Shown here one piece after another: positions 3,919 through 11,763 of a stretch of DNA of 12,339 nt. How positions within the stretch are numbered: the first letter of the stretch is position 1; the number at the start of each line of letters is the position of its first letter. A program made the translations under genes and the position numbers. Below the pieces are notes generated by a model. It did not search any database. It was not told where the DNA came from and saw only the letters and a program-made list of their open reading frames with translations. This DNA is from an uncultured Collinsella sp. (GTDB lineage Bacteria; Actinomycetota; Coriobacteriia; Coriobacteriales; Coriobacteriaceae): the NCBI GenBank assembly GCA_934646865.1, contig CAKUEU010000050.1, forward strand, positions 1-12,339. Reading direction: 5' to 3'.

Positions 3919-4425
3919 ATGTCCCTGGAGCGCCTGGGGGTAGGTACTTACAAAACGACTTGCGCTGCCGATACGGAGTACTTTGGCGAGCTAATTGCAC
4001 CGTGCCTTGAGGACGGCGATGTGCTCATCCTGACCGGTGGCCTGGGAGTGGGCAAAACTCACTTTACCAAGGGCGTCTCGCGCGGGCTGGGCGATGGGCA
4101 TATGGTTACGAGCCCTACGTTCGCGCTCATGGCCGTTCACGATCAAGGTCGTATTCCGCTGTTTCACTTTGATCTATACCGCTTGGAGCATGCCTACGAG
4201 CTCGAGGATACGGGTATTTTCGATGTGCTGGGCTATGAGGGTGCTTGCCTGCTGGAATGGGGCGAACAATTCCAGGACGAGCTGACGGATGAGTATCTTT
4301 CGGTGACGCTCAAGCGTGATGAGGGCGACAGCGATGTGCGAACGATAACGCTCGAGGCGCACGGTGACCGCGCAATGGAGCTTTCCCATTTGATTGATAA
4401 GGCTGTACAAGATGAGCTTGCATAA
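3919..4425 (+). CDS. tsaE: tRNA threonylcarbamoyladenosine biosynthesis ATPase TsaE
   Basis: TsaE is the P-loop ATPase that binds the TsaB-TsaD heterodimer and resets it between rounds of t6A synthesis at A37 of ANN-decoding tRNAs. The 168 residues carry the Walker A sequence GGLGVGKT (40-47), SPTFAL (65-70), HFDLYRL (83-89) and LLEWGEQ (111-117), in the family's order and spacing. A strong AAGGAG sits 5 nt before the ATG, immediately after the tandem stops of the glycosylase gene. The 3' end overlaps the next gene by 14 nt, so TsaE is probably translationally coupled to its protein partners TsaB and TsaD. Confidence 0.95.
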   Translation: MSLERLGVGTYKTTCAADTEYFGELIAPCLEDGDVLILTGGLGVGKTHFTKGVSRGLGDGHMVTSPTFALMAVHDQGRIPLFHFDLYRLEHAYELEDTGIFDVLGYEGACLLEWGEQFQDELTDEYLSVTLKRDEGDSDVRTITLEAHGDRAMELSHLIDKAVQDELA

Positions 4426-6796
4426 CGACAACGCGCTGGTGGTGGCGTTCGATACCTCGACCGACATGCTTGCCTGCGCGGCAAGCTGGATTGATGGGCA
4501 GACGGGCGAGACGAAGCTCGTGAGTGGCGACCACATGTGTCGCCGTCACGCCAACGTTGAGCTCGTGAATACCGTTGATGGCGTGCTGACTCAAGCCGGT
4601 CTGGATCGCAGCGATGTTGGTTGCTACGTGGTCGGCCGCGGCCCGGGGTCGTTTACGGGTGTGCGCATCGGCATCTCCACTGCCAAGGGCCTCGCGCGTG
4701 GTGCCAATGTTCCGCTGCTGGGCGTGTCGACGCTCGATGCTTGCGCTTGGACGGCGTGGAAGGCTGGCGTGCGCGGCAAGCTTGGTATCTTGGCCGATGC
4801 TATGCGCGGTGAGGTATATCCGGCGCTGTATATGCTGGTCGATGATGGTCCCGAGCGTCAATTTGAGCGCGAGCACGTGGTCAAGGCCGCCGTGGCGCTC
4901 GATGAGTGGCGCCAAGCAGCGGACTGGGACCAGGTTCAGCTGACCGGTGACGGTCTCGTGCGCTATGGCAAGCTGCTGGGTGAGGACGAGGCCGCCCGCT
5001 GCGTGGAGCACGACCTGTGGTGGCCTTCGGGCGAGGGCTTGCTGCTCGCGCACGCTGCGGGTGACGGTGATCCGGCCCGCGTCCTGCCGATTTACACGCG
5101 CCTTTCGGATGCCGAGGAAAACGAGCGCAAGCGTCTTGGTCTTGCCGAGAGTGCGCAGAGCGAAATTACGGGCGTTGCCGATGAGCTCGCCGGTCGTCAT
5201 CTGCAGTTCCGTCCCATGGGCGCGGCGGATGCCGAGGGCGCGAGCGCGCTGGAGGCTGCCTGCTTTGAAGGTGCCGGACACGAGGCGTGGACGCCGGGCA
5301 TGTTCCTGTCCGAACTGGGCGAGGACGTCGCTGCGCCGCGTAGTTGGTGGGTAGCACACGACGACGGCAAGCTGCTGGGCCTTGCCGGCGGTATGGTCGT
5401 GGACGGCGATGTGCAGATTCTGGATGTCGCCGTCGACCCGGCACATCGCCGTGAGGGCATTGCCCGCAAGCTGCTGTCGCATGTGAGCTATGATGCCCAG
5501 ATGCTCGGCTGCACCACGGCTTCGCTCGAGGTCGAGGATGGCAACGAGGGAGCAATCGCGCTTTATAACGCTCTGGGCTTTACCGAGGCAGGACGGCGCC
5601 GCGGCTACTATGGTGCCGGCAAGGATGCCATCGTCATGACGGCTCCGCTGCCCCTGGTGCTTCCGGTCGATAACGCCTCGCCCGAGCCGACGGCAGCCGA
5701 GCAGCGCGTATGGCCGCTGCCTGCGCCTAGGCGCTCCGAGGGGGAGCGTGCCGAAATTGAGCGCCGCCGCCTAGTGCTTGCCATCGAGAGTTCCTGCGAC
5801 GAGACGGCCGTGGCGATTATCGATGCGGATGGCAATATGCTGGCCAACCAGGTGTCGACGCAAATTGATTTTCATGCCCGCTTTGGCGGCGTGGTGCCCG
5901 AGATCGCCTCGCGCAAACACGTTGAGGTGATTGTGAGTGTCGTGGATGCGGCGCTCGAGGATGCCGCAGCATCGCTTGGTCTTGAGGGTGGAGCCATTGC
6001 TCCCAGCGAGCTTGCCGCCGTGGGTGTGACGCAGGGTCCGGGCCTGGTGGGCGCGCTCGTGGTGGGCGTTGCCTTTGCCAAAGGCTTTGCCTACGCTGCC
6101 GGTAAGCCGCTCGTATGCGTCAACCATCTGGAGGGGCACCTGTTTGCCAACCTGCTGGCGCAGCCCGACCTCAAGCCGCCGTTTATCTTCACGCTCGTCT
6201 CGGGCGGTCATACCATGCTTGTTCACGTCAAGGCATGGGGCGACTACGAGGTACTTGGTGAGACACTCGACGATGCCGTGGGCGAGGCCTTCGACAAGGT
6301 GGCCAAGGCGTTGGGTCTGGGCTATCCCGGTGGCCCCATCATCTCCAAGCTGGCCGAGACGGGCAACCCCAAGGCGATCGATTTTCCCCGCGCGCTTAAC
6401 AGCAGGGGAGACTATCGTTTCTCGCTTTCGGGGCTTAAAACGGCCGTGACGCTCTACATTGAACAGGAGACCAAGGCCGGGCGCACGATTCACCTGCCCG
6501 ATCTGGCGGCTTCGTTTGAGGCAGCTGTCTTTGACGTGCAGTACAAGAAGGCCAAAAACGCACTGCACGCTACCGGATGCAAGGAATACTGCATCGGTGG
6601 CGGCGTCTCGGCCAACCCGCATCTGCGCGAGATGATGATCAAGAAGCTTGGGCGTCAGGGGATCCGCGTAACGGTGCCGCCCTTGTCTGCCTGTACCGAT
6701 AACGCAGCCATGATCGCGGAGGTCGCTCGCCGTAAATTCGACCGAGGTGAAATCTCGCCGTTCGACGTCGACGCCGATCCGAACATGACGCTGTAG
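4412..6796 (+). CDS. tsaB-rimI-tsaD: TsaB-RimI-TsaD triple fusion (t6A synthase subunits plus ribosomal-protein-alanine N-acetyltransferase)
   Basis: This 794-residue protein joins three usually separate proteins. Residues about 8-235 are TsaB, the dimerization subunit (AFDTSTD 12-18, GRGPGSFTGVRIG 75-87). Residues about 264-411 are a GNAT domain like RimI, which acetylates the N-terminal alanine of ribosomal protein S18: acetyl-CoA loop RREGIARKLL (346-355), ALYNALGF (383-390), and RRRGYYGAGKDAIVM (395-409), matching the RimI tail. A Pro/Ala/Glu-rich linker spans about 412-450. Residues about 453-794 are TsaD, which transfers threonylcarbamoyl to A37: IESSCDETAVAI (458-469), FGGVVPEIASRKH (491-503), metal ligands in NHLEGH (H572, H576), LVSGGHT (595-601), GGGVSANPHLR (729-739) and CTDNAAMIA (761-769). 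Fusion fixes TsaB:TsaD at 1:1. The ATG at 4412 was preferred to the TTG at 4394, which lies deeper in tsaE. No domain seems degraded. Confidence 0.95.
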   Translation: MSLHNDNALVVAFDTSTDMLACAASWIDGQTGETKLVSGDHMCRRHANVELVNTVDGVLTQAGLDRSDVGCYVVGRGPGSFTGVRIGISTAKGLARGANVPLLGVSTLDACAWTAWKAGVRGKLGILADAMRGEVYPALYMLVDDGPERQFEREHVVKAAVALDEWRQAADWDQVQLTGDGLVRYGKLLGEDEAARCVEHDLWWPSGEGLLLAHAAGDGDPARVLPIYTRLSDAEENERKRLGLAESAQSEITGVADELAGRHLQFRPMGAADAEGASALEAACFEGAGHEAWTPGMFLSELGEDVAAPRSWWVAHDDGKLLGLAGGMVVDGDVQILDVAVDPAHRREGIARKLLSHVSYDAQMLGCTTASLEVEDGNEGAIALYNALGFTEAGRRRGYYGAGKDAIVMTAPLPLVLPVDNASPEPTAAEQRVWPLPAPRRSEGERAEIERRRLVLAIESSCDETAVAIIDADGNMLANQVSTQIDFHARFGGVVPEIASRKHVEVIVSVVDAALEDAAASLGLEGGAIAPSELAAVGVTQGPGLVGALVVGVAFAKGFAYAAGKPLVCVNHLEGHLFANLLAQPDLKPPFIFTLVSGGHTMLVHVKAWGDYEVLGETLDDAVGEAFDKVAKALGLGYPGGPIISKLAETGNPKAIDFPRALNSRGDYRFSLSGLKTAVTLYIEQETKAGRTIHLPDLAASFEAAVFDVQYKKAKNALHATGCKEYCIGGGVSANPHLREMMIKKLGRQGIRVTVPPLSACTDNAAMIAEVARRKFDRGEISPFDVDADPNMTL

Positions 6797-7189: not shown

Positions 7190-7256
7190 AAATTCAAAAA
7201 AAGTTGAAAATTCATTACAAATTTGCGTTGACTTTAGGTAACTAAAGTTTCATACT
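7190..7256 (+). promoter_or_regulatory. Promoter of the cstA transcription unit with AT-rich UP-like region
   Basis: The -35 element is TTGACT (7228-7233) and the -10 is CATACT (7251-7256), with an ideal 17-nt spacer. Upstream, 7190-7225 is very AT-rich with A-tracts, like an UP element contacting the RNA polymerase alpha subunit. Transcription would start near 7263, giving a leader of about 235 nt before cstA. It is the only good promoter I see between tsaD and cstA. Confidence 0.75.
7231..7248. promoter_or_regulatory. 18-bp palindromic operator in the cstA promoter spacer
   Basis: ACTTTAG and CTAAAGT flank GTAA, giving 7-bp perfect half-sites that overlap the 3' end of the -35 box and fill most of the spacer up to the -10. 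A repressor bound here would block RNA polymerase. The TTAGGTAA-type core loosely recalls DtxR/IdeR-family metal-regulator boxes, but this resemblance is weak and the regulator is unknown. Confidence 0.6.
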
Positions 7257-7327
7257 CCTTTTCAACCACTGGGGGATGTGAACACGCACGGATCGTTCGC
7301 ATCATGATTGAAGAGGGTTTCTTAGAC

Positions 7328-7372
7328 ATGTTCACGCATCAGCTAAACATTATCAGCGTAGTAATTATCTGA
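7328..7372 (+). CDS. Candidate Ile/Val-rich leader peptide of the cstA attenuator
   Basis: The 14-codon ORF from ATG 7328 encodes MFTHQLNIISVVII. Its last seven codons are four Ile, two Val and one Ser, and the TGA stop lies at the foot of leader hairpin H2. A GAAGAGGG ribosome-binding-like site ends 10 nt upstream. An in-frame ATG at 7304 would give a 22-residue form, but has only a weak upstream site. Runs of codons for the sensed amino acid are the hallmark of leader peptides such as those of ilv operons. If it works so, shortage of charged tRNA-Ile or tRNA-Val would stall the ribosome and favour read-through into cstA. It is unlikely to act as a protein itself. Confidence 0.6.
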   Translation: MFTHQLNIISVVII

Positions 7373-7420
7373 TGCGGGTTAGCACATACAGCTAGCCCGT
7401 ACGATAACGGGCGGCTGATG

Positions 7421-7462
7421 AAGATGAGGGCCGTCGAGCGCAACCGACGGCCCTCATTTTTT
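7421..7462 (+). terminator. Intrinsic terminator upstream of cstA (attenuator terminator)
   Basis: A perfect 12-bp stem (7425-7436 with 7445-7456, TGAGGGCCGTCG and its complement) with an 8-nt loop is followed by six T (7457-7462). It ends 35 nt before the cstA start, downstream of the only evident cstA promoter. It must therefore be read through for cstA to be expressed, unless an unseen promoter lies in the last 35 nt. Confidence 0.9.
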
Positions 7463-7483
7463 ATGTCTGAGTAGTTCTTTTTA

Positions 7484-7500
7484 GAGGAGGAAATGTAATG
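7484..7500 (+). promoter_or_regulatory. Strong cstA ribosome binding site with overlapping start-stop codons
   Basis: GAGGAGG (7484-7490) lies 7 nt before the cstA ATG (7498). Between them, ATG TAA (7493-7498) forms a start-stop pair whose last base is the first base of the cstA start (ATGTAATG). The 2-nt spacing makes initiation at 7493 unlikely, so 7498 is the start. Confidence 0.8.
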
Positions 7501-9387
7501 AACGGAGTTTTGCTCATGGTTGTGGCTGCGGCGGTGCTCGCCTGCGGCTATCTGGGCTACGGCCGCTGGCTGGCCAACAAGTGGGGCGTTGACAAAGAGG
7601 CCCTCACGCCGGCCAAGCGCATGAAGGACGGCAAGAGCTTCTCGCCCGTCTCCGCCTTTACCGCGTTCTCGCACCAGTTCAGCTCGATCTGCGGTGCTGG
7701 CCCTGTCACGGGTACGATCGTCGCCATGGCCTTCGGCTGGCTGCCCGTCGTGCTCTGGGTCCTCGTCGGCGGCATCTTCTTTGGCGCCGTCCACGACTTT
7801 GGTGCTCTGTACGCCTCGATGAAGAACAACGGCAAGTCGCTCGCTCAGCTCATCGAGAAGTACATCGGCAAGACCGGCCGTCGCCTGTTCCTGCTGTTCT
7901 GCTGGCTGTTCTGCATCATCGTCATCGCCGCCTTCACTGACATGGTCTGCAAGACGTTCATGTTCACCCCGGCCGTTGACGCTTCTGGCGCCGCTACCGG
8001 TGCCATCGACTTCACCAAGTCCTATGCCGCTGGCTGTGCTGGCACCATCTCCATCCTGTTCACCTTCGTCGCTATCGCCTTTGGTTGGGCCCAGAAGAAG
8101 TTCAACCTCACCGGTGCCGCCGAGTTCGTCACCGGCGTGGTCCTCATGGTCCTCATGTTCGCCGTCGGTATGCAGTTCCCGGTCTACCTGGATAAGTTCC
8201 AGTGGTTCGCCGTCGTCATGGTCTACCTGGTCTTCGCTGGCGCCATGCCCATCCAGATGCTCAAGACCCCGCGTGACTACCTCACTTCCATCATGATGAT
8301 CGTCATGATCGTTTGCGCTGTCCTCGGCATCGTCGTCCTGGGCGTCAACGGCCAGGCCACCATCACCGCTCCGGTCTTCACCGGCTTCTCCACTGCCTCC
8401 GGCATGATGTTCCCGGTCCTGTTCGTTTCCGTCGCTTGCGGTGCTCTCTCCGGTTTCCACAGCCTCGTTTCTTCCGGCACCTCTTCTAAGCAGGTCGAGA
8501 AGGAGCAGGACGCCGTCAAGGTCGGTTATGGCGCCATGATCGTCGAGTCCTTCGTCGGCATCCTTGCCATCATCGTCGCCGGCATCATGTTCTCCGACAT
8601 GAACACCGCCGGTACCGGCGCCCTCAACGCCGGCGTCGCTTCCACCCCGTTCCAGATCTTCGCCGCTGGCATCTCCCGCGGTATGCAGGCCTTCGGTGTT
8701 GACGGCACGCTCGCTACCGTCTTTATGACCATGAACGTTTCCGCTCTGGCCCTGACCTCGCTCGATGCCGTCGCCCGCATCGCCCGCACCTCGTTCTCCG
8801 AGTTCTTTGCCCAGACCAACGACGCCCTGGCCATCGAGTCCAAGGCCGGCTACATGAAGGTTCTCGGCAACCCCTGGTTCGCCACGGTCGTCACCCTGCT
8901 TCCCGGTCTCGCCCTTGCTTTTGGTGGCTATGCCAACATCTGGCCGCTCTTTGGTGCTTCCAACCAGCTGCTCGGCGGTATGACCATGATCACCCTCGCC
9001 GTGTTCTGCAAGTGCACCGGCCGCAAGGGCTGGATGCTCTACGTGCCCGTCGCCTTCCTGCTCTGCTGCACCTTCACCTCGCTGGTCCAGAGCGCCATGG
9101 GCTGCATGACCGCTGTCCAGGCCTACGGCTTCTTCGGCACCATCCCGGCTACCGCCACCACGGCCGCCGTCTCCGTCGCCGCCACCAAGGGCCTGCAGCT
9201 CGTTTTCGCCGTCCTGCTGATGGTCCTGGGCCTCATCGTCGCCGTCAACTGCCTCAAGGAGTTCTTCGGCAAGGAGGCCGGCTCCATGCCTGACGAGGAG
9301 CCCGAGTGGTCCGAGATGGGCAAGGCCGAGTACGGTCGCGCCGCTGCCGCTGAAGCTCCTGCCGATGCCGAGGCCGCCAAGGCCTAG
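7498..9387 (+). CDS. cstA: CstA-family carbon-starvation transporter (peptide/pyruvate-type permease)
   Basis: This is a polytopic inner-membrane transporter of 629 residues; E. coli CstA and BtsT, about 700 residues, import peptides and/or pyruvate. An N-terminal membrane segment (about 3-25) is followed by the conserved block FSHQFSSICGAGPVTG (57-72) through GAVHDFGALYASMKNNGKSL (96-115). Further hallmarks are FPVLFVSVACGALSGFHSLV (305-324), KVGYGAMIVESFVG (341-354), ALALTSLDAVARIARTSF (416-433) and WPLFGASNQLLGG (482-494). The last roughly 30 residues (about 597-629) are a cytoplasmic acidic and alanine-rich tail. Codons end overwhelmingly in C (GTC, ATC, TTC, GCC), far more than in neighbouring genes, implying high expression. 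It sits alone between its attenuator-like leader and a strong terminator, so it is monocistronic. The Ile/Val-rich leader suggests a role in amino-acid or peptide scavenging, but the substrate cannot be read from sequence. Confidence 0.93.
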   Translation: MNGVLLMVVAAAVLACGYLGYGRWLANKWGVDKEALTPAKRMKDGKSFSPVSAFTAFSHQFSSICGAGPVTGTIVAMAFGWLPVVLWVLVGGIFFGAVHDFGALYASMKNNGKSLAQLIEKYIGKTGRRLFLLFCWLFCIIVIAAFTDMVCKTFMFTPAVDASGAATGAIDFTKSYAAGCAGTISILFTFVAIAFGWAQKKFNLTGAAEFVTGVVLMVLMFAVGMQFPVYLDKFQWFAVVMVYLVFAGAMPIQMLKTPRDYLTSIMMIVMIVCAVLGIVVLGVNGQATITAPVFTGFSTASGMMFPVLFVSVACGALSGFHSLVSSGTSSKQVEKEQDAVKVGYGAMIVESFVGILAIIVAGIMFSDMNTAGTGALNAGVASTPFQIFAAGISRGMQAFGVDGTLATVFMTMNVSALALTSLDAVARIARTSFSEFFAQTNDALAIESKAGYMKVLGNPWFATVVTLLPGLALAFGGYANIWPLFGASNQLLGGMTMITLAVFCKCTGRKGWMLYVPVAFLLCCTFTSLVQSAMGCMTAVQAYGFFGTIPATATTAAVSVAATKGLQLVFAVLLMVLGLIVAVNCLKEFFGKEAGSMPDEEPEWSEMGKAEYGRAAAAEAPADAEAAKA

Positions 9388-9427
9388 TCGGTCGGACGGG
9401 TTGAATCTCCCATCTATTTGACTCGGA

Positions 9428-9465
9428 AAGACCGGGTCCGCAATCAAGCGGACCCGGTCTTTTTT
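9428..9465 (+). terminator. Intrinsic terminator of cstA
   Basis: A perfect 14-bp stem (AAGACCGGGTCCGC 9428-9441, complement 9448-9461) with a 6-nt AATCAA loop runs into a T-tract (9460-9465). It lies 40 nt after the cstA stop and separates cstA from the next gene. Confidence 0.93.
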
Positions 9466-9506
9466 CTTGTGAGAACAGGTGGTGCAAGGGCGTTCTCGCA
9501 GATGTT

Positions 9507-9536
9507 TTGCGTGGATAGGCTCGTGCGTTGTACCAT
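9507..9536 (+). promoter_or_regulatory. Possible promoter of the JetD-like gene
   Basis: TTGCGT (9507-9512) and TACCAT (9531-9536) with an 18-nt spacer make a moderate sigma70-type match between the cstA terminator and the next start codon. Two CATATG palindromes (9534-9539, 9554-9559) follow, of unknown meaning. Confidence 0.4.
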
Positions 9537-9570
9537 ATGGACGTATATGTGTGCATATGAAAGGGGCCCC

Positions 9571-11763
9571 GTGGCCAAGACGGTATATTCCGATAATCAA
9601 AACAATGTCGATGCTCTGGCTGAGCGCCTGAGCAGCCAGACATCGCTTTCTGCTGAGCGTGCCAAGCTGGTTGCCTACGATCTGCTTTGCCGTAAGGCGC
9701 TCAAGATTAAGTCGAGTGCACTGGCGCAGATTTTCCGCTCCGTCGATAAGGAATGCGACACCAAGGCGATGCGCGATGAGCTTATCGAGGCAAATATCGT
9801 GACCAAGATCGAGGGTAGCGGCATTAACGGGCGCCCGGCGTTCTATACCATCAATGCTGAGATCCGCGATGCCCAGGAGCAGCCTGCCGAGTCCGTCGAA
9901 GATTTTGTCGTCGAGGATTCCGCTGACGTGCCTGCTGTGGAAGAAGTTGCTCCGCATGAGCATGTCGATACCGATGAGTTGCTCGATGAGAACGTCGTGC
10001 GCGCCTTTACGGCCAAGGCAGGACGCGGCGGTTTTGGCGGGGGTGGCAAGCGCGATGCGCAGCGCCGCGCCCAGCAGGAGCGCTTCCGTCGCGCCGTTGC
10101 TCAAAAGGGTGAGACGGATGCCGAGGCTGTTGAGAACGAGGTTGCTGCCGAGTCGCAGAAGCCCGCGAAGGAGCAAAAGCCCGTGGAGGCCCAAGAGCCC
10201 AAGCGTCGTCGCGGTGCTCACTTTAAGGCTGCGCGGCAGGATGTCGCGCGTGAGGTTGAAGAGCCTTCCGAGGTTGCAGACGATGTTGAGGAGTCTGCCA
10301 AGAGGGCTCCGGGTTCGTGTCGTCCCGGCCGCGGTTTTGCGGGACGCGCGTATCCCGTAAAGCGTCAGGAGAAGGGCGAGCCGGCTTCGACCGCTCAGGC
10401 CGAGAAGGCCGAACAAACCGAGAAAACCGTTGAGCCGGCGACTCGCGAGCAGAAGCCTTCCGAGTCGCAGTCTGCGGCTGACACCGAGGTCAAAGCCCAA
10501 CAGTCCGCTGACAAGCAGGCGGGGGAGAGCGCTTCGAGCAAGCCCCGCCGCCGTCGTCACCGTGGCGGTCGTGGCTCAAATGCCGAGGCCGCGGCCGAGA
10601 AGGCAGCGACGCAAAGCAAGGATGCGAAGGCTGAGGCCCCGGTGGAGCAGCCCAAGCGCCAGCCGGCGAAGGGGGACAAGCCCGAGCGCTCGCAAAAGAG
10701 CTCGTCCGCGCCAAAGCAAGAGCGCAAAGCCCAGGCAGATTCTAAGCGCAAATCCCAGGCGCAGTCCAAACCGACTGCAAACGATGCGGCCGCCCAGCAG
10801 CCTGAGCCGCCCGCTCATGGCGAGGTTTCGGCGTTTGCTCTGGCCCGTGTCCTGGGCAGGCAGCTGCTCAAGGTCGTTCCCACGCCTACGGCGCTCTCCA
10901 AGATTAAGGAGCAACAGACTCAAATTGTTAAGGTCGAGGGCAAGGACGGCAAAAAGGCTCCGCAGCGCACTCAGCACAACGAGATGTCCAACCGCAAGAT
11001 TGCCGAAGAGATTGCGATCATCCAGGCTTGGATCGAGCAGAATCGCGGTGCCGACACGTCGGTCGCTTCGCGTCGCCAGCGCGCCTACCAGATTTTTAAC
11101 GATGAGAAGGCCTTTGACGGCAAGCACGGCGAGCGCCTGATTCGGCGTATGACCGAAAAGGGCATCAGCATGCAGGCGATTAAGGTCGCCCCCAACCGCC
11201 CCGTGCACTTTACGGGTTTCTTTACGCTGGGCGCCGACAAGCCGTTCATTATGGTCGAGAACCTGGACACCTATGACGAAATCGTCAAGCTCCTGCGCGG
11301 CCGCAAGCACGCCAAGCTTTTTGGCACCAAGGTGGGTGGCGTGATTTTTGGCGGCGGCTGCAAGGCGAGCGTTTCACACGCACTGGATGATTATCTGGCC
11401 GAGATCGGCTATCGCTTTAACTATGTCTACTACGTGGGCGACATCGACCGAGAGGGTGCGCGCATTGTCGAGCAGACCCGTAACGCCAATGTGGTTGAGA
11501 TTCGCCTGCATGCTGGCATGTATCGTGCCATGCTCGCCGAGCACAAGCGTCGCGTGAAGGCTGGCGGCGAGTGCGAGCCCGCAGCTGCCAATCAGGGCGT
11601 GCCGCAGAACCTGGCGGCGACGATCAAAGATCTGCCTATGGTCACGCGCGTGCAGTTCCGCAATGTGCTGCGCGAGGGCGGACGCATTCCGCAGGAGATT
11701 CTGATGACCGCCGACTATCGGGATGGCGACTCGGGAAGCTTCGACCGCATGCTGAACAATTAG
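9571..11763 (+). CDS. Orphan JetD-like TOPRIM-domain protein with long disordered linker
   Basis: I start it at GTG 9571, which has AAAGGGG 4 nt upstream, giving 730 residues; ATG 9547 would add 8 with a poor ribosome site. Residues about 10-97 are a compact, mainly helical region that looks like a winged helix (ending GRPAFYTIN). Residues about 100-415 are low-complexity Glu/Lys/Ala/Gln/Pro sequence with basic patches KRRRG (211-215) and RRRRHRGGRG (326-335), probably disordered and nucleic-acid binding. From about 416 the protein is folded: SRRQRAYQIFNDEKAFDGK (500-518), then a TOPRIM-type pattern with MVENLDTYDEI (561-571, Glu563), GGVIFGGGCKA (589-599) and YYVGDIDREGARI (620-632, Asp624 and Asp626). 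This order resembles the C-terminal nuclease domain of JetD (DUF2220), which cleaves plasmid DNA in Wadjet systems. No JetA, JetB or JetC is present. Domain assignment is by eye; function is unknown. Confidence 0.72.
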   Translation: MAKTVYSDNQNNVDALAERLSSQTSLSAERAKLVAYDLLCRKALKIKSSALAQIFRSVDKECDTKAMRDELIEANIVTKIEGSGINGRPAFYTINAEIRDAQEQPAESVEDFVVEDSADVPAVEEVAPHEHVDTDELLDENVVRAFTAKAGRGGFGGGGKRDAQRRAQQERFRRAVAQKGETDAEAVENEVAAESQKPAKEQKPVEAQEPKRRRGAHFKAARQDVAREVEEPSEVADDVEESAKRAPGSCRPGRGFAGRAYPVKRQEKGEPASTAQAEKAEQTEKTVEPATREQKPSESQSAADTEVKAQQSADKQAGESASSKPRRRRHRGGRGSNAEAAAEKAATQSKDAKAEAPVEQPKRQPAKGDKPERSQKSSSAPKQERKAQADSKRKSQAQSKPTANDAAAQQPEPPAHGEVSAFALARVLGRQLLKVVPTPTALSKIKEQQTQIVKVEGKDGKKAPQRTQHNEMSNRKIAEEIAIIQAWIEQNRGADTSVASRRQRAYQIFNDEKAFDGKHGERLIRRMTEKGISMQAIKVAPNRPVHFTGFFTLGADKPFIMVENLDTYDEIVKLLRGRKHAKLFGTKVGGVIFGGGCKASVSHALDDYLAEIGYRFNYVYYVGDIDREGARIVEQTRNANVVEIRLHAGMYRAMLAEHKRRVKAGGECEPAAANQGVPQNLAATIKDLPMVTRVQFRNVLREGGRIPQEILMTADYRDGDSGSFDRMLNN

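Follow-up and report, generated by a model that had tools for sequence, protein, structure and literature searches.

A putative isoleucine-reading attenuator, with rival hairpins that covary, precedes cstA in Collinsella and related Coriobacteriia

Peptide-leader attenuators are textbook control elements of amino-acid synthesis operons. The window analyzed here, a stretch of 12,339 nucleotides from an uncultured Collinsella sp., raises the question of whether such an element stands in front of a transporter gene, cstA, and, if so, which amino acid it reads and what this says about the cargo of the transporter. The cstA gene (7498..9387, on the + strand, as are all window features given below) encodes a 629-aa CstA-family transporter, PF02554. 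The product matched this Pfam CstA domain with 475.6 bits (cut-off 27) and was 99-100% identical to the CstA of named C. aerofaciens records, which puts the bacterium very near to C. aerofaciens. Its score with NF011590, the equivalog of the pyruvate/proton symporter CstA, was 191.5 bits, under the NCBIfam cut-off of 1188, and a search by sequence for a solved CstA structure found none. Downstream of cstA, a long ORF with an uncertain start (9418-11763) showed no Pfam or NCBIfam match. Elsewhere in the window, a single ORF at 4394-6796, adjoining tsaE, contains a GNAT domain followed by TsaD; its N-terminal part is TsaB-like by eye, and the ORF perhaps represents fused tRNA threonylcarbamoylation genes.

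The sequence-only reading of this locus had listed a promoter, a short ORF, exclusive hairpins and a terminator, followed by cstA, and all of these are present at 7228-9387. The sigma-70-type promoter TTGACT-17-CATACT (7228..7256) was the sole promoter match in the region, with a score near chance (1 vs a shuffle mean of 0.6). In relatives, a -35 element of the form TTGAC[TAG] was counted by eye in 33 of 35 leaders at the best promoter-like site picked by a script. The spacer contains CTAAAG, which recurs in relatives: a by-eye count at the best-match sites found TAAAG in the spacer (7234-7250 in the window) of 29/35 leaders, and this motif is a possible operator. A 5' stem-loop (7275..7303) precedes the leader ORF and was rejected as a regulatory part, being weak, with z below -1 in 13/30 relatives. 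The Shine-Dalgarno-like GAAGAGGG (7310..7317), which has purine-rich counterparts in relatives by eye, ends 10 nt before the ATG of the leader ORF. This ORF, MFTHQLNIISVVII plus the stop codon, has 14 codons, from the ATG at 7328 to the TGA at 7372; the frame could also open at 7304, giving a longer ORF, but no ribosome site is evident ahead of that start. Among 2000 mononucleotide shuffles of a 241-nt stretch, one gave an ORF of 8-24 aa with at least four Ile among its last eight codons.

The leader ORF constitutes segment A (7328..7372) and is followed by segment B (7373..7384), which abuts the stop codon and is the 5' arm of the B:C hairpin. Segment C (7389..7402) can pair with B or with D, and segment D (7408..7421) with C or, as the antiterminator, with T; pairing of D with A is also possible. 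Segment T (7423..7436) is the 5' arm of the terminator, and T' with the terminator U tract occupies 7445..7462. The cstA Shine-Dalgarno sequence, AGAGGAGG, lies at 7483..7490. From the T run to the cstA ATG there are 35 nt, too few to accommodate another promoter of ordinary type; thus none is expected beyond 7462, where a separate promoter driving cstA had been named as fatal to the earlier proposal.

To what extent is this arrangement conserved? One scan of genome contigs yielded 60 Coriobacteriia cstA loci, of which 53 carry an Ile-ending ORF and the same hairpin array ahead of cstA, a call based on the script's best short ORF plus the sequence behind it. The seven loci without a leader (L033, L035, L038, L048, L049, L053 and L059) are labelled Atopobiaceae in six cases and actinobacterium in one. 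Because 19 of the 53 (L001-L017, L019 and L025) are near-copies with 99-100% identical CstA, the number of independent cases is smaller, and a better figure is given by 34 representative leaders, i.e., 33 of the 60 loci without near-copies plus L074, of which L039 and L054 still have identical ORFs. Ile codons occur in all 34 representatives, two to six in each, with Ile among the last five codons in every case, and 32/34 contain Ile-Ile. A Val codon of any kind was found in 12/34. The conservation that had been predicted for the short ORF and its codons is therefore borne out, and of the proposed Ile/Val signal the isoleucine part stands; valine as a conserved co-signal was dropped, and the signal is isoleucine. 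A CTA-Leu codon is present in 33/34 representatives; in several leaders it is able to pair with the first bases of D, and it could be a second signal or structural.

The reading frame shows the same conservation. In almost every row of the alignment, gaps that fall within the ORF have lengths divisible by three, and the stop codon abuts B in 31 of 35 aligned leaders, lying within B in L042 and L057 and being separated from it by 2-3 bases in L034 and L060. In a CstA tree of 43 rows, the leaderless Atopobiaceae copies L049 and L053 are nested in the leader-bearing group, indicating that the gene was transferred without its leader or that the leader was lost there. In the same tree, L034, which does bear a leader, is grouped with long-branched copies that lack one.

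The folding energy of the 235-nt region is -93.4 kcal/mol, whereas 200 dinucleotide-shuffled versions averaged -62.7 (sd 4.2), giving z -7.35. The helices B:C (7373-7402, -17.9), C:D (7388-7420, -18.1) and D:T (7409-7436, -11.2) overlap and are mutually exclusive. The terminator T:T' (7423-7462, -27.3) ends in six T, as first described, and has 14 computed pairs, so that the 12-bp stem given before was an undercount; an automated terminator scan of the window did not have it among its matches. RNAalifold with 35 leaders returned B:C and T:T', and 15 of 20 pairs showed a change on both sides in at least one sequence. Over 59 leaders, the paired cells amounted to 85.8% for B:C (29-44% in slid versions), 84.5% for C:D (38-57%) and 97.3% for D:T (22-61%), with pairings read from L001, which biases the comparison toward the native over the slid versions. 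In the same set, both-side changes were found at 10/11 pairs of B:C, 5/8 of C:D and 3/7 of D:T. The count of doubly changed pairs in D:T was reached in 12 of 500 column shuffles, the shuffle tests leaving relatedness in.

When partners were swapped among the 59 leaders, the z of the summed energy was -12.6 for B:C, -9.1 for C:D, -18.3 for T:T', -5.2 for A:D and -3.1 for D:T, and swaps as good as the native combination numbered 0/5000 for the first four helices and 4/5000 for D:T. The native D:T beat its own swap mean in 30/59 leaders, and A:D in 33/59. Compensation in D:T is exemplified by L152, where GCAGC in D faces GCUGC in T, and by L165, where GCGGUCG faces CGACUGC. Within the cstA leaders alone there was no D:T swap signal (757/2000 on 35 leaders, 4109/5000 on 29) because both sides hardly vary. 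Thus B:C, C:D, D:T and T:T' all covary, as had been predicted for relatives, and D:T is the weakest of the rival helices, its case resting on the diverse 59-leader set.

Folding was also computed for different states of the leader. With B covered, C:D forms in 35/35 leaders, and the D..T stretch alone folds as D:T in 35/35 and in 59/59 (at least five pairs). For the state in which B is free and T' has yet to be transcribed, minimum-energy folding gave B:C in 22/35 leaders and D:T in 22/35, and C:D in their place in 13/35. Adding T' puts the terminator into the minimum-energy fold of all 35 leaders, whichever state is considered. The switch must therefore be kinetic, operating during transcription.

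On the basis of this comparative evidence, the leader very probably acts as a ribosome-mediated transcription attenuator, adjusting cstA expression to how much charged tRNA-Ile is available. A translatable ORF lies before the hairpins and holds a run of codons for one amino acid, antiterminator and terminator covary, and the terminator is intrinsic. From the elements observed, together with how they are conserved and how the rival helices covary, we infer the ribosome positions, the kinetics and the response to isoleucine as follows. With ample isoleucine, the ribosome would reach the stop codon and cover B, allowing C:D to pair; T would then be free to form T:T', and transcription would end near 7462. 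With scarce isoleucine, the ribosome would stall at the Ile codons shortly ahead of the stop, and B:C would pair, releasing D for D:T, which would block the terminator and permit transcription of cstA. If the leader is not translated, A:D pairing would be possible and termination favoured. A point against this explanation comes from Streptomyces, where codon changes in a leader-like ORF of ilvB had no effect, as far as the available part of that report goes (PMC1262725).

We also looked at where the element occurs. A first covariance model (35 leaders) gave matches in 85 of 396 Coriobacteriia genomes at E <= 0.001, and a second (59 leaders) gave 92 places in 85/396. These places are 72 at cstA, 12 at an MHS-family symporter gene, four at ApbA/PanE- or hydratase-like genes, two at contig ends and two spurious, both of the latter in G296 and with no Ile-rich ORF. 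The 72 cstA places comprise 57 found by tblastn and 15 in G001-G015, at the cstA loci from which the analysis set out or, in G008, at a second cstA copy. First-model matches in G082, G125, G251 and G295, none of them before cstA, were missing from the second model and were dropped. The genome G087 has three leaders, one of them ahead of cstA. In an Actinomycetota-wide sample, 18/396 genomes matched, 17 of which had already matched in the Coriobacteriia search; the remaining match, in G615, was partial only (E 8.6e-4) and was rejected as a case beyond Coriobacteriia.

The Ile leader ahead of the MHS-family MFS symporter gene (L150-L152, L155, L157, L165-L167 and L198-L201) was found in G357, G216, G197, G187, G232, G052, G276, G226, G160, G218, G301 and G248. 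TIGR00883 (MHS-family metabolite/H+ symporter) was the best family for 12/12 of these products, at 348-401 bits, under the cut-off of 443. A further MHS-type leader, in G330, was assigned indirectly, as it lies at a contig end. Including G330, 11 of the 13 MHS-leader genomes also have cstA; in each MHS-leader genome the MHS-type leader is the sole model match, and cstA there is without one. Of the four remaining targets, L142 has an ApbA/PanE-type reductase gene, L143 a 2-oxopentenoate-hydratase-like gene with an ApbA/PanE-type gene behind it, and L145 a hydratase-like gene. At L147 the gene ends early, after 92 codons, and no NCBIfam family matched it, so it is called hydratase-like by eye only. 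The hydratase-like proteins fell below every curated cut-off and matched no Pfam family. At the ilv operons that were located, neither covariance model matched. Within about 1.5 kb of flanks at 17 ilvD/ilvB loci, six short ORFs rich in I/V/L were seen, none convincing by eye, and Rfam gave no match at these 17 loci. At L101 953-1410, about 450 nt separate ilvD from a gene that by eye is ilvA-like; this stretch includes a promoter-like TATAGT, has no Rfam match and is possibly another ilv operon regulator. At G002:C1:237484-238405, a PF00920 dehydratase-family match falls into two adjacent pieces.

What, then, might CstA import under an isoleucine signal? The Coriobacteriaceae are among the families predicted to include more than 80% auxotrophs, according to the portion of the study available (PMC10665431). 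We examined 20 genomes in which cstA shares 98.7% identity or more with that of the window over the 487-488 residues compared. Acetolactate synthase over the cut-off was found in 0/20 of them (genome completeness unstated), with partial, sub-threshold matches in G115 and G176, and IlvE was found in 20/20. In the first 15 genomes, acetolactate synthase was present in nine and absent in six, with IlvE in 15/15. Across 28 genomes, IlvE matched in all 28, in 27 of them over the cut-off. The missing acetolactate synthase suggests that the lineage of the window does not turn pyruvate into isoleucine in the usual way, and with IlvE retained, amination of a 2-oxo acid that has the matching skeleton would be possible. 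Both leader-cstA units of C. provencensis (L074 and L032) directly follow a copy of ilvE; the other 59 loci had no ilvE in the flanks examined. Acetolactate synthase was present in 8/8 MHS-type genomes tested, so the auxotrophy argument does not reach them. We tentatively propose that the transporter imports an isoleucine precursor or source, perhaps a branched-chain 2-oxo acid aminated by IlvE. A wider version, drawn from gene content and rather doubtful, would be a Coriobacteriia isoleucine-tRNA regulon for the salvage of branched-chain 2-oxo acids, in which CstA would import 3-methyl-2-oxovalerate for conversion to isoleucine by IlvE and, in other lineages, the MHS, ApbA/PanE and hydratase genes would be the targets. 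In the parts of the reports available, E. coli CstA and BtsT import pyruvate, itself a 2-oxo acid (PMC7730263, PMC5847655), and Lactococcus 'PanE' is a branched-chain 2-keto acid reductase according to a title in the references of PMC4353338. If the proposal holds, one RNA sensor would have been conserved while its target changed among lineages.

Gene content as read from the genomes appears to fit 2-oxo acid salvage, and peptide import fits nearly as well. The same switch may possibly serve a CstA that imports Ile-containing peptides, with isoleucine shortage in an auxotroph leading to peptide uptake. The CstA proteins of E. coli, Salmonella and Campylobacter have been tied to peptide use in the available portions of two reports (PMC7730263, PMC5847655), and the genomes with near-window cstA, lacking acetolactate synthase, apparently have no isoleucine synthesis by the usual route. 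However, several amino acids would be expected as signals for peptide import, and besides Leu (mostly CTA) only Ile is found in every leader; furthermore, other leaders directly precede the MHS symporter and the ApbA/PanE- or hydratase-like enzymes. It is improbable that the switch governs import of pyruvate feeding branched-chain amino acid synthesis. This would agree with pyruvate as the substrate of E. coli CstA and BtsT (PMC7730263 and PMC5847655, as far as their available text goes) and with acetolactate synthase in nine of the first 15 genomes, but the enzyme is missing from the other six and from all 20 genomes with near-identical cstA, where the leader is kept, and pyruvate import is disfavoured in the lineage of the window.

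The isoleucine switch itself was also weighed against simpler explanations. The leader could be a constitutive attenuator or an RNA-binding site, with a short ORF that has no role of its own and Ile codons that are kept by A:D pairing; A does include part of the Ile codon run, and the A:D partners covary too (0/5000 shuffles). We consider this very unlikely, as the ATT two codons before the stop lies outside the tested helices and its A and T columns (31-32) are invariant in 35/35 leaders, start codon, frame and stop position are all kept, and leaders with different RNA partners retain Ile. A chance resemblance combined with an ordinary terminator before cstA, for which the promoter score, by itself near chance, might speak, is refuted by the conservation and covariation over 59 leaders and has practically no likelihood.

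The tRNA-Ile attenuator that we favour would have several uses. An Ile leader conserved on a transporter across a family of gut bacteria, in lineages that are apparent isoleucine auxotrophs, provides a handle on the unsettled substrate of CstA, since the cargo, judged by the cell's own regulation, should be one that relieves isoleucine shortage. The leader may show how bacteria that are unable to make isoleucine obtain it, could serve to report the isoleucine status of Collinsella, and would be a case of a single RNA sensor on several unrelated genes.

Isoleucine T-box riboswitches, a class included in Rfam, would likewise sense tRNA-Ile charging. Unlike a T-box, the cstA leader has a translatable ORF, and the window matched no Rfam family: Rfam release 15 gave 0 matches above the gathering threshold, with Atu_C4 (E 0.13), BjrC68 (E 0.23), PK-BYV (E 0.59) and Thr_leader (E 0.78) below it. 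E. coli cstA and btsT belong to the same transporter family; their regulators are CRP and CsrA, with BtsSR for btsT (PMC7730263), and in B. subtilis, cstA is predicted to be targeted by an sRNA (PMC2784878). Unlike the leader described here, leader-peptide control is absent from these accounts in the portions available (PMC7730263, PMC2784878). Among open PMC papers, a search turned up no description of leader-peptide attenuation upstream of cstA, in agreement with the first impression that the arrangement was undescribed for this gene. The mechanism belongs to a known class; what is unusual is the class of gene that it targets, and the RNA has no Rfam match at curated thresholds. As in the ilv attenuators (Corynebacterium ilvBNC and the ilvB-II, ilvB-OMG and ilvB motifs), described in the available parts of PMC10272879 and PMC1262725, a short ORF rich in branched-chain codons is followed by hairpins and a terminator. 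Unlike them, the cstA leader reads isoleucine rather than a mixed signal, has no Rfam match at the curated threshold, and would control a transporter and, in relatives, other genes outside isoleucine synthesis. As in attenuators of the trp/his type, a stall would decide between antiterminator and terminator (PMC9413887, in its available part). Unlike that type, the cstA leader has five downstream segments, B, C, D, T and T', and its stall hairpin B:C would spare the terminator and free D to act.
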